Positions 37,987-57,113 of a stretch of 64,000 nt of DNA are shown one piece after another. This DNA is from Gemmata massiliana (GTDB taxonomy: Bacteria > Planctomycetota > Planctomycetia > Gemmatales > Gemmataceae): assembly GCA_000531095.1 (NCBI GenBank), contig HG799465.1, positions 550,368 through 614,367 on the forward strand. The letters are read 5' to 3'. The position numbers were made by a program, and so were the translations under genes. The notes beneath the pieces were generated by a model. The model ran no database searches and was not told the origin of the DNA. It saw only the letters and a list, made by a program, of their open reading frames with translations. How positions within the stretch are numbered: position 1 is the stretch's first letter; each line of letters opens with the position of its first letter.

Positions 37987-38704
37987 TCAAGAAACGGTGC
38001 CGCGCTCGCAAGCCGCCGCGTAGGTGGCTTCGAGGTCGAGCTTCAGGTTCATCGCTCCACGAATCGGGACCGGGACCGTGGGCAACGGGAATCCCGATGC
38101 GACCGTGTAGTGCCACACCGCGAACTGTTCTGCGCCGTTATGCACTTGGGGATGAACGACGAGCACAGGGGCGTCGGTGCCGCGCGGCCGCTTGGTGATC
38201 GGGTACACCCCCACCAAACTGTGCAGGTGCGTGGCCCAACTCGCGGGACCGGGTAGCGCGTCCACGATGACCACACCCGCGCCGCGCGACATGAGTGCGG
38301 CCGCCCGCACCGCAAACGCGAGCGACGAGTCGGAGTCTGCCTTGTTGTCTGGAGTCACGAACATCACCACGGCCGTGACGCGCCGACCGTGGTGCGCGTC
38401 GGACACGTTCACACCCACGCGGTCGGTGAACCGGGCCGGTGCAACGAACGTCGGCGCCGGTGCGTCGAACCCGGGGTACTTCTGGTCCGTGTCCTGCCCG
38501 CCGGCGCTCACCACCGGCGGCCCTTGGGCGAAGCCCGCGATCTCCTCGCCCGTTTTCAGGCGCGTGCGATCGAGTGGCTCCGCGCGAAACCGCTCGGCGT
38601 TCGGCAGTTGCGCGTTCAGTAACTTCGTATAATGTATGCTATACGAAGTTATTACGGAACGGGTCGCGGTCGTTCTTCGTCCAGTCGATATCGAGCAGTG
38701 GCAT
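37987..38704 (-). CDS. DUF4058-like protein, broken by a sequencing-linker insertion
   Basis: The gene starts at 38704 (MPLLDIDWTKNDRDPF) and is cut at 38657 by a 37-bp loxP-like sequence that brings in a TAG stop. Removing exactly 38620-38656 gives one open frame of 226 residues (..NDRDPF then LNAQLPNAERFRAE..). The product ends LDLEATYAAACERGTVS, much like the neighbouring DUF4058 gene (LDLEATYAEACTRL), and both start MPLLD, so they are probably related or companion proteins. Function unknown. I believe the break is artificial and the gene is intact in the organism. Confidence 0.7.
38620..38656. other. loxP-like sequencing-library linker (artefact)
   Basis: 33 of the 34 bases of loxP are present (38620-38652), followed by TACG, the tail of the 454 Titanium mate-pair linker as I remember it. 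It interrupts a gene out of frame (37 bp), and its removal restores the frame. No recombinase or P1-like sequence is nearby. Confidence 0.9.
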
Positions 38705-38724: not shown

Positions 38725-39465
38725 CTATTCAGTAATACGGAGCCGCGTGCACGCTTCCGCATAAGTGGCTTCCAGGTCGAGGCGCACGCACCCGTAGCCC
38801 TTGAGTGCCAGGGGCACGGCCGGGAGCGCGGTCCCGACCGCGAGCGGCCAGGTCCAGAGGTCGATCAGGTCTTCTTTGTTCCGGCGCACCGGGCGGTACG
38901 CGGTGGCATAAATCCACGGGTCGTCCGGCATCAGAAATTTGTCGTCGTGCTCGGCCAAGCGGACGAGTTCGTTGTGCAGGTTCCAGTGCCGCGACGTCAC
39001 GATGTCGACCACAACGAGGCCGATCCCCTTACCAAGGTAGCTGAGACACTTCGCGGCGAACTGTCCTCGCTCGTTGGCCTCTTTCTTGTTCGACGGGCTG
39101 ACTAGTTCGACGACCGCCAGCAACTTGTAGTCGTCGCTCACGTCCCGGACTTCCACCCTAATCTCGGTCGGGAAACTCGCCGGCATGCTCAATGCGGTGG
39201 CCGGCGGTGCATACGTCTCGATCGCGAGTGCGACCGCGCCGGTAAGCTCATCACCATTACTGTTAGCGGCACGGTGCTCGTTCCGCTGCTCGTACTCAGC
39301 GACATCGGCCGAGACGCTCGATCCCAAATACATTGGGGCGTCAGCAACGAACTCCTTCGGCAGTCGGCGATTCAGATCGTCCGAAAGCGCGCTCGCCCAA
39401 CGCGAATGAAACGAGAGCCACGGGCGGCGCGCAATCGGTCCGTGAAAGTGGTCGAGCAGCGGCAT
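38725..39465 (-). CDS. DUF4058 family protein
   Basis: 246 residues. Typical DUF4058 start MPLLDHFHGPIARRPWLSFHSRWA and the block LLAVVELVSPSNKKEANERGQFAAKCLSYLGKGIGLVVVDIVTSRHWNLHNEL, which contains the E..S..NK pattern of a PD-(D/E)XK-like or Uma2-like core. Ends LDLEATYAEACTRLRITE. Function unknown; the family is common in cyanobacteria and planctomycetes. It precedes the related broken gene by 20 bases on the same strand. Confidence 0.85.
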   Translation of the reverse strand: MPLLDHFHGPIARRPWLSFHSRWASALSDDLNRRLPKEFVADAPMYLGSSVSADVAEYEQRNEHRAANSNGDELTGAVALAIETYAPPATALSMPASFPTEIRVEVRDVSDDYKLLAVVELVSPSNKKEANERGQFAAKCLSYLGKGIGLVVVDIVTSRHWNLHNELVRLAEHDDKFLMPDDPWIYATAYRPVRRNKEDLIDLWTWPLAVGTALPAVPLALKGYGCVRLDLEATYAEACTRLRITE

Positions 39466-53119: not shown

Positions 53120-55321
53120 ATGACCTGTTTCGCCGTCGGCGATCCGGCTAGCACCCACTGGGCGTGGACCGTCACCGGGTTGCTCGCCGTTCCCGCTCTG
53201 GTTGCACTAAACGGGTTCTTCGTTGCCGCCGAGTTCGCGCTCGTCGCGGTGCGCCGAACGCGCCTCGAAGAACTGGTCAACCGAAACACGAGTGGGGCCA
53301 AAGCCGCGCTCGACGCGGTCACCCACCTGGACCGCACCATCGCCGCGACTCAACTCGGCATCACACTGGCCAGCATCGCGTTGGGGTGGGTCGGCGAGCC
53401 GGCCCTGGCCCGATTGATCGAACCGCTCACCGAAGCGATTCTGCCTAGCGCGTGGGCGGCGACTGCGGCACACGCTGTCGCGTTCACCCTCGCCTTCGCC
53501 CTTATCACGTTCATGCACGTTGTCTTCGGGGAACTCATCCCCAAGACGCTCGCGCTTCAAACCCCCGATCAAACTTCACTGTGGGTCGCGGCCCCGCTCA
53601 ACGTGTTCGTCCGGCTGACTCGGCCGTTCGTCGCGCTGCTGAACGGCACCGGCAACCAGATCCTCCGATGGTGCGGCTCCGCGCCCGCCGGGTCCGAGAG
53701 CAACGTTCACTCGGTCGAAGAACTGGCGATGCTGATCGAGGAGACGCGCGAGTCGGGCGTGCTCTCGGCACAACAGGCCGAGTTCGTGCGCAAGGTGTTC
53801 ACCCTGTCGGGCCGAAAGGTGGGCGACTGCATGGTGCCGCGCGAGCGGATGGCGGCCCTGGACCTCAGTACCCCGCCGGACCGGATACTCGAAGCGGTTC
53901 GGTCCGGCGCCCACACGCGGATGCCGGTGTATGATGGCACGCTCGACAAAGTAGTCGGCGTGGTCAACACCAAGGATCTGTTTCACCTGTTCAGTTTGCG
54001 TGGGTTGGTGGTTCTGGAAGACGCGCTCTATCCGCCGCTGTACCTGGACCCCAACGACTGCGTGGCCGACGCGCTGGAACTGTTCCGCAAGGAACGGCGC
54101 CCACTGGCCGTGGTGCGGGACAAGACGGGTCAGGTTCTCGGCCTCATTACCGTAGAGGATGTGCTGGAACAGATCGTCGGCCAGTTGGAAGACGAACACG
54201 ACCGACCAACGCCCCGCTTGCGTCTCGGGCGCCGACCGATGCTGAGCCTCCCGCCGAAACGCGGGTCCACACCCGGGGGTTCAAACCCCGGGCTAGAGAA
54301 GGCACGACCCAAAACACTCCGTGCCTTTGTGACCCCAAATGGGGTCACCGGGAATAGCCCGGGGTTTCAACGACGCGCTAGAGAAGGCACGACCCAAAAC
54401 ACTCCGCGTTTGCAATTCGTTGACAGAGTCCGGCTACAGAAAACGCTCGGAACAAGGTCTCCCCCGTTCCGAGCGTGCGACATGGCCTCGCTTCGATCGT
54501 TTCTCGTAACCCGCTCTCCGAATCTCGTGTGGTTACACCGCGTGGGGATACTGGGCCAGCACCCGTTCGAGCCGGGCCGTCGGGCGAGTGGTCGCGCGGA
54601 TCTTCAGCACCTGGTAAGTAACCCCCATCACGAACAGAGCGAGCAGGGCGAGCCGGACCGGGATCAGCGACGGGTCATTCGGCCCGGTTGCGAACGGCCG
54701 ACCGGTCGGGAACCGCTTCAGCGTTTCGGTCGTGGTGAACACCATGAGCATCAGGAAGCTCATCGAAAGTGCGACGGCCTGCGTGTAACCGGCCCTGCGC
54801 CATGCCCCGCGAGTCGTCAGCGTTCCGATCGCGAGCAGCGCGAGTGTGAAGAGCCCGAACACCTGCCCCGGGGTGAACCCGAGCGTGAAGATGAACCCAA
54901 ACCCGGACACGGTGCCCGCCAGCATGGTGCCGAGGTACCACTTACCGAGCCGGGTCTTCGGGTCGATCTTCCCGTACCGGGCGAACGACACGAGTCCGAA
55001 CCCGATCGGCAGGATGCTCACGGCGGTGTGTGCGATGGTGAGGGCGGTCATGGCTGTCTCCGTTTCTTTAGTTTCAACTTGCAACTGAAGAGATCTACCG
55101 CGCCGCCAGTTGCACCTTGCAACCAAAATTCAGAAAACCTCGTCGCACCGAGAAAGGACCACAGAAGGTGCCTGTTCGGTAGCAAAAATGCGCGGCCGAA
55201 TCGCCGAAAACAAAGCGGCAGATACCCTACAATGACGCCCGGAACTTCACGGGAGGCGGTATGGCACGGGCCGGGCAGACCCACGAGACGCGGACCGCGG
55301 AACAGGAGTTCAACCGGCTGA
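53120..55321 (+). CDS. CNNM/CBS-domain membrane protein (HlyC/CorC family); true C-terminus uncertain
   Basis: Residues 1-200 are a CNNM membrane domain (LVALNGFFVAAEFALVAVRRTRLEEL, helices around 60-165). Residues about 210-355 are two CBS domains (CMVPRERMAALDLSTPPDRILEAV ... RMPVYDGTLDKVVGVVNTKDLF; DALELFRKERRPLAVVRDKTGQVLGLITVEDVLEQIVGQLEDE). The usual transporter-associated C-terminal domain is missing. From about residue 375 the frame runs through a palindromic repeat and then antisense through the membrane-protein gene at 54533-55051, to a stop at 55321. That part is probably not real. The family is linked to magnesium or cobalt efflux. The real end may be near 54250-54510. Confidence 0.75.
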   Translation: MTCFAVGDPASTHWAWTVTGLLAVPALVALNGFFVAAEFALVAVRRTRLEELVNRNTSGAKAALDAVTHLDRTIAATQLGITLASIALGWVGEPALARLIEPLTEAILPSAWAATAAHAVAFTLAFALITFMHVVFGELIPKTLALQTPDQTSLWVAAPLNVFVRLTRPFVALLNGTGNQILRWCGSAPAGSESNVHSVEELAMLIEETRESGVLSAQQAEFVRKVFTLSGRKVGDCMVPRERMAALDLSTPPDRILEAVRSGAHTRMPVYDGTLDKVVGVVNTKDLFHLFSLRGLVVLEDALYPPLYLDPNDCVADALELFRKERRPLAVVRDKTGQVLGLITVEDVLEQIVGQLEDEHDRPTPRLRLGRRPMLSLPPKRGSTPGGSNPGLEKARPKTLRAFVTPNGVTGNSPGFQRRAREGTTQNTPRLQFVDRVRLQKTLGTRSPPFRACDMASLRSFLVTRSPNLVWLHRVGILGQHPFEPGRRASGRADLQHLVSNPHHEQSEQGEPDRDQRRVIRPGCERPTGREPLQRFGRGEHHEHQEAHRKCDGLRVTGPAPCPASRQRSDREQRECEEPEHLPRGEPEREDEPKPGHGARQHGAEVPLTEPGLRVDLPVPGERHESEPDRQDAHGGVCDGEGGHGCLRFFSFNLQLKRSTAPPVAPCNQNSENLVAPRKDHRRCLFGSKNARPNRRKQSGRYPTMTPGTSREAVWHGPGRPTRRGPRNRSSTG
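54265..54406. repeat. Palindromic repeat (family C) with a 30-bp direct repeat
   Basis: Contains gtccacacccggg...aaaccccgggct (54265-54295), the perfect palindrome gtgacccc-aaat-ggggtcac (54329-54348), and tagcccggggtttca (54355-54369), which is the reverse complement of 54281-54295. The 30-mer starting gctagagaaggc occurs at 54292-54321 and again at 54377-54406. It lies inside the read-through end of the CNNM/CBS frame. Confidence 0.75.
54443..54476. terminator. Intrinsic terminator hairpin
   Basis: Perfect 11-bp stem (54443-54453 with 54466-54476) and 12-base loop, between the CNNM/CBS gene and the convergent membrane-protein gene. It supports an end of the plus-strand gene before this point. 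Confidence 0.7.
54533..55051 (-). CDS. Small integral membrane protein
   Basis: 172 residues from the ATG at 55051. Five hydrophobic helices (IAHTAVSILPIGFGLVSF, MLAGTVSGFGFIFTLGF, GQVFGLFTLALLAIGTL, AVALSMSFLMLMVF, RLALLALFVMGVTYQVL). Resembles DUF2306-like membrane proteins, but I am not sure of the family. No catalytic motif. The plus-strand frame of the CNNM/CBS gene runs fully over it in antisense; this gene has the better coding look. Confidence 0.7.
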   Translation of the reverse strand: MTALTIAHTAVSILPIGFGLVSFARYGKIDPKTRLGKWYLGTMLAGTVSGFGFIFTLGFTPGQVFGLFTLALLAIGTLTTRGAWRRAGYTQAVALSMSFLMLMVFTTTETLKRFPTGRPFATGPNDPSLIPVRLALLALFVMGVTYQVLKIRATTRPTARLERVLAQYPHAV

Positions 55322-57113
55322 CGATCGACGGACTTCGGCCACTGGTCGCGCTCCTCGCGCCGAACCCGCCGAAGAAGAAGGGCGACCTCGTCGCCGTCCT
55401 GACGCGAGCGATGACCGACCCGGACCGTGTGCGTGCCCTCTATGACCAGCTCGACCGCATCACTCAACTCGCGGTCCGCGAAGCGACCCACGACCCGAAC
55501 GGGCACTATTCGCGCACCCGATTCGTGGCCAAGTACGGCCGCGAGGTGGCCTGGCACGAACCCGCGCCGGAGCGCAAGTCGGGTTGGTACGACCAGCGCA
55601 GCGACCCGACCCACGCGGCCCTGTTCTTCCCCAACTACGACTACTTACCCACGAACGTGCGCGCGATCTTGCTCAAGTTCGTGCCGGCCCCGGACCCGTT
55701 CCAGATCCGAACGAGCACGGAACTCCCGGCGGAACGGGCACTCGTCTGGCCCAGTTGGTCCGAGAAGCCCTCAAACGAAACCGTTCCAATCCGCGTGCGC
55801 GAAACGGCCCGCGAAGCCGAGGCGGACCTGCCCGCCGTTCTCCGGTTGATCGACGCCGGCAAAATCCGCGTGACCGACAAGAAACACGTCCCGACCGAGG
55901 CGACACGCAAAGCAATAACGGGCGTACTCGCCGGCGGAGATTTCTACACGGCCGAGGACGCAGACGAGCAGCGCGACGACCCGGCCCACGACGTGACCAT
56001 CAAGGCGTTCGCGTGGCCGATGTTGGTCCAGGCCGCGGGGCTCGCGGAGAAGCGCGGAGACGCGCTGAAGCTCACCGCGGCCGGGCGCGACGCCCTAAAC
56101 AAGCCGCCCGCCGACCTGCTGGACAAGGTCTGGGCCGCGTGGCAGAAAACGCACCTGATCGACGAGTTCGCGCGGATCGACGTCATCAAGGGTCAGGGGC
56201 GCGTCGATTTCACGTCGGTCGCCACCCGGCGCAAGGCCGTGCTCAACGTGCTGAAGGACTGTCCGTCGGGCGAGTGGGTCGCGATCGAGGACTTCTGGCG
56301 CCTCATGCGCGGCACCGGGCGCGGGTTCTCGCTCGTCGGGGAACGGGACGCCTGGGAACTCTACCTCTTCGAGCAGGAGTACGGCAGCCTCGGCTACGAC
56401 GACACGCACACCTGGGAACAGCTTCAGGGGCGGTTCATTCTCGCGTTCCTGTTCGAGATCGCGGCCACCGTCGGGTTACTCGATGTGGCCTTCATCCCGC
56501 CCCAAGGCGCCCGGGACGATTTCCGGGGGCGGTGGGGTGCCGACGATCTGTCGTGCTTCAGCCGGTACGACGGGTTGTTGTTCTTTCGCATCAACCCGCT
56601 CGGCGCGTGGTGTTTGGGGCTTGTTGAGAAATACCAGCCCGTAGCCCCACAGAAAACAGACACGCTCCGTATCCTGGCGAATCTGGACGTGGTCGCGACG
56701 CGCCCGCCCGCCGCGGCCGCGGACCGGCTGACGTTGGAGCGCTTCGCCGACGAAACCTCCCCCGCGGTCTGGAAACTGTCCGCGGCGAAGATCATGGGCC
56801 GTAATAACTTCGTACAGCATACATTATACGAAGTTATACGACGTTTGCAATTCGTTGACAGAGTCCGGCTACAGAAGAGACGTTCCTGAGCGACCTTCAC
56901 CAGAAGGCCGGGCAATTAAAAGACGGTGGACCGGCACGGTTGATCGAGTGCGCGACCGAACACGTCGCCGCGGAACTGGCGCACGATCGACAGTTGAAGG
57001 GGAAGTGTGTGCTGGCCGGGGACCGATTAATCGTGGTCCGGGAAGCCGATCTCGCGGCCGTGCGGAAGGCGATTCGCAAGCTCGGGTACGTCTGGCCCCT
57101 CGCGGGCGAGTGA
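55261..57113 (+). CDS. Helicase-associated (XPB/Ssl2-like, PF13625-type) protein, broken by a linker insertion
   Basis: The frame from 55261 is interrupted at 56800 by a 42-bp linker plus a 35-bp fragment. Deleting exactly 56800-56876 joins ..SAAKIMG to ETFLSDLHQKAG.. and gives one 591-residue frame ending at 57113. The C-terminal part (TLRILANLDVVATRPPAAAADRLTLERFADE ... ECATEHVAAELAHDRQLKGKCVLAGDRLIVVREADLAAVRKAIRKLGY) resembles the helicase-C3/XPB-associated domain; the upstream part is winged-helix-like. No ATPase motifs, so it is an accessory or DNA-binding protein, function unknown. I take the break to be artificial. Confidence 0.8.
56800..56841. other. loxP-like mate-pair linker (artefact), reverse orientation
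   Basis: All 42 positions of the 454 mate-pair linker as I remember it (reverse complement of the one at 38620) are present with one mismatch (C at 56815). It breaks a gene, and the 35 bases after it are copied from 54407-54441. Confidence 0.92.
56842..56876. repeat. 35-bp mate tag, exact copy of 54407-54441
   Basis: Identical to 54407-54441 in the same orientation, 2.4 kb upstream. Its position right after the linker fits the second end of one circularised fragment (54407-56799), wrongly kept in the assembly. Confidence 0.88.

Follow-up and report, generated by a model that had tools for sequence, protein, structure and literature searches.

Leftover linkers in genome assemblies are a known type of error. 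The described systems closest to the locus reported here are the reads of 454 paired-end libraries and the loxP site of phage P1. In the Cre-loxP paired-end kit of Roche 454, the junction is marked by a linker (PMC3253782), and the 42-mer studied here is printed as a mate-pair adapter, with no Titanium name attached, in PMC5199103 and PMC5710592. Gemmata massiliana IIL30 was sequenced from a 454 3-kb paired-end library and assembled with Newbler 2.8 into 22 scaffolds, and the words 'linker', 'adaptor' and 'adapter' are all absent from its main text (PMC4672568). A literature search found no title on linker contamination of assemblies. The 42-mer is taken here to be the 454 Titanium linker.

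The locus shares with a 454 Titanium (Cre/loxP) paired-end read the 42-base linker and the order right end - linker - left end on the same strand. It differs from what an unsplit read of this kind would add to an assembly in that the chimeric piece replaces sequence rather than adding to it, as was found at all five sites that could be measured. With the phage P1 loxP site it shares the core (up to 37 of 42 bases), and it differs from that site in the outer adapter bases and in the displaced tags.

Linker, tag and the interrupted gene

The window analysed was a 64-kb stretch of the G. massiliana assembly. The linker (42 bp) was read directly from the sequence at positions 56800-56841, on the minus strand; 41 of its 42 bases agree with the printed mate-pair linker, the sole mismatch lies within the core, and the 42-mer gave no match in 100 dinucleotide-preserving shuffles. 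It is followed on the plus strand by 35 bp (56842-56876) that are 100% identical, on the same strand, to 54407-54441 (plus strand). The downstream copy is the displaced left-end mate tag; the upstream one is its genomic origin and the left end of an implied circularised fragment of 2,393 bp (54407-56799). The first-pass annotation had described a 42-bp linker with one mismatch, a 35-base copy in the same orientation, and a right end - linker - left end order for a fragment of that extent, and each of these readings was confirmed.

The gene is present in two pieces on the plus strand: 513 codons that finish at 56799 (55261-56799), and 78 codons that run from 56877 to the stop codon (56877-57113), giving a sum of 591. 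The upstream 513 codons found matches in seven of 30 relatives, one of them weak, and were 88% identical over 513 residues to the relative G012. Between the counterparts of 56799 and 56877, G012 carries 81 bp (27 residues) that are missing here, and a comparable extra stretch was found in five of six relative loci (L135-L140, among which L137 was the one locus with no match to the search motif). In the G012 protein (the product of L135), the Helicase_C_3 domain (PF13625) was matched at residues 471-580 with 35.1 bits, against a gathering threshold of 34.2, and the match runs across the stretch missing here, at about residues 513-539 of that protein. Pfam searched at an E value of 0.01 gave no match in either piece of the window's gene. 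The 121 bases of G012 that cover the missing stretch were searched in the own genome and nothing was found, which is a weak result, the search having had no positive control.

A rejoined frame of 591 residues arises because the lost 81 bp are divisible by three, and is an accident of that number. It had been claimed earlier that removing 77 bp rejoins a 591-residue frame. The arithmetic (513 + 78 codons) stands, and the restoration of the gene does not: the relatives have about 27 more residues at the junction, and therefore deleting the 77 bp does not yield the true gene. As judged by comparison with these relatives, the gene is broken by substitution and not by insertion, 77 chimeric bases having taken the place of about 81 real ones. 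A complete protein of about 618 residues (513 + 27 + 78) is expected. The implied simple insertion of 77 bp was thereby refuted.

Linkers across the assembly

A search of the whole assembly for the linker, as suggested by the first-pass annotation, was run on all 9,269,192 bases (22 contigs). Allowing up to three mismatches, it returned 49 loxP-type cores, 34 of them perfect, against none for a reversed-pattern control. All 49 are held by 46 stretches of the assembly, three of which are shorter than 20 kb. The direction of the linkers in the assembly was uneven (16 versus 33; binomial p 0.02). Eighteen of the 49 lie within 200 bp of a run of N, versus 168 of 9121 positions drawn at random from the same stretches; the 64-kb window itself has no N run.

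An 18-base same-strand repeat beginning no more than 8 bases from the core edge was present at 13 of the 49 sites and lacking at the other 36, and no inverted 18-base repeat was reported at the 49 sites within the same distance. The same-strand repeat was found at 114 of 17910 random positions, and at 29 of 17910 with a distance of 1-5 kb, in a control that uses one word per position where the linker sites use up to 18 overlapping words. Tags 1-5 kb distant were found at nine of the 49 sites, and all nine obey the side rule, by which a right-side tag comes from upstream and a left-side tag from downstream. Their implied fragments span 1,424-3,969 bp (median 2,166), and such lengths of 1.4-4.0 kb at nine of 49 sites are like those of a 454 paired-end library. 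As to the remaining adjacent repeats, those at L160 (-226) and L185 (89) suggest very short circles, and the one at L147 (+6104) suggests a natural repeat. L143 (left side, -135), which goes against the side rule, resembles a natural tandem repeat.

A looser search, up to 200 bp from the linkers, showed further direct repeats not adjacent to the core at L152, L158, L162, L178 and L179, two of which (L152 and L162) run against the side rule, and 14-base inverted matches at 11 sites; both counts stand without a control. These repeats and matches were taken for chance or for repeat families. At L143 (9963-10065) there are two linkers, with starts 66 bases apart and a short piece in between. At L185 (9920-10070) a piece of about 52 bases flanks one linker on both sides with one difference, which would suit either a tiny circle or a natural repeat.

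Eight of the 49 sites were compared with G012; six were chosen because they bear a tag, and five were measurable on both flanks. All five were replacements, with lengths in the assembly and in the relative of 77/81, 118/198, 179/151, 140/145 and 37/39 bp. The 77/81 pair was read by eye from the alignment, the aligner having stopped six bases short and given 83/87. For L149, L156 and L168, the tag sequence also occurs in G012 at its proper location, at a distance of 1.4-2.4 kb and on the expected side. No two-flank measurement was obtained at L142, where the comparison gave only a repeat family and short matches, or at L164, which adjoins an N run. At L174 (9200-10900) the flanks of the linker match two different places in G012, which would be either a false join or a rearrangement.

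The 37/39 pair belongs to the other linker in the window (38620-38656, plus strand; 37 of 42 bases), where G012 has 39 bp. No tag was found at this linker. A minus-strand gene next to a DUF4058 gene (38725-39465) is probably disrupted at its start by this linker.

Origin of the chimeric stretch

A chimeric mate-pair read kept in the assembly, as had been proposed from the window alone, is strongly supported by the printed 42-mer, the 49 cores, the 3-kb 454 paired-end library of the probable source, and the nine of nine tags that obey the side and strand rule. The linker and tag are an error of the assembly and carry no biology. The library and assembler of G. massiliana IIL30 would fit a mate-pair origin. 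Our preferred reading, to which we give a probability of roughly 0.94, is that an unsplit 454 read formed the end of one contig, against which the following contig was set, with the replacement of about 81 real bases by 77 chimeric ones. A genomic fragment of 2.4 kb would have been circularised via Cre/loxP adapters for the 454 paired-end library, and one read ran from its right end through the linker into its left end without being split at the linker, as the anatomy of the read shows. That read would have reached a contig edge in a poorly covered stretch; the linker and the 35-base tag would then have become the contig end, with the next contig placed flush, and the edge would lie at 56876/56877. 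The outcome, as the comparison with relatives shows, is 77 chimeric bases where about 81 real ones belong.

The same artefact may have arisen in another way, the replacement being made at the consensus or gap-filling stage, with an unsplit read laid across a stretch of similar size. Such an origin agrees with the near-equal lengths at three of the five measured sites (77/81, 140/145 and 37/39), but at the other two the lengths are 80 and 28 bp apart (118/198 and 179/151), and the 18 of 49 linkers near N runs are as expected of contig edges; we regard it as possible and lean against it. A pure insertion of 77 bp of a chimeric read into an otherwise complete gene would account for two gene pieces in one frame, with 591 codons in total. 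Given the relatives' 27 or so residues, however, it would require that 27 codons had been lost independently at the very same base; moreover, the replacement pattern is repeated at four other measured sites and the relative's Helicase_C_3 match spans the missing stretch. This reading was ruled out by the relatives and is held to be very improbable.

The possibility that the bacterium carries a genuine loxP site or mobile element, with a P1-like phage as its source, was also weighed. Phages P1 and P7 have this same core, which is annotated as a lox site in their records. When the perfect 42-mer of this genome (from L143) was used as the query, it matched 14 phage records, only two of which, both of phage Q33, reached 41 of 42 bases. 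P1-like records, however, agree with no more than 37 of the 42 bases and cover at most positions 4-40, so that P1 bases were not found on both sides of the core and the outer linker bases are not those of P1. Furthermore, the tags differ between sites and come from 1-5 kb away, and real sequence is missing at all five measurable sites. The outer bases, the displaced tags and the lost sequence together ruled out this element, and the chance that it is real is negligible.

Under the preferred reading of an unsplit 454 read at a contig edge, the finding is curatorial only: one gene has been read wrongly, and suspicion falls on 48 further places in the assembly. If the linker and tag were cut out here, as would be the natural repair, the resulting protein would look plausible and yet be wrong, lacking about 27 residues within a domain. 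Cutting the linkers from this assembly would leave hidden deletions, and the honest correction is a gap. It is an even bet that, as a general rule, mate-pair linkers remaining in public drafts of the 454 era stand where real sequence was replaced and not merely interrupted; if so, removing the linkers introduces deletions unnoticed, and some of these keep the reading frame and are hence invisible.

The linker in other records

In the Lactococcus phage Q33 record (JX564242.1; L206, 3496-3536), the annotated portal gene terminates within a match to 41 of the 42 linker bases, which contains its stop codon. The 7-kb stretch around it contained no tag repeat. The same artefact has probably entered this published phage record. 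When one genome per species was scanned for exact copies of 37 linker bases, at least 103 stretches were found, and 11 other named bacteria were represented among the 80 matches listed. Also among the matches listed, the short contigs L050 and L075 of Litoribacter populi hold four tandem linkers, with regular spacings of 129 and 123 bases.
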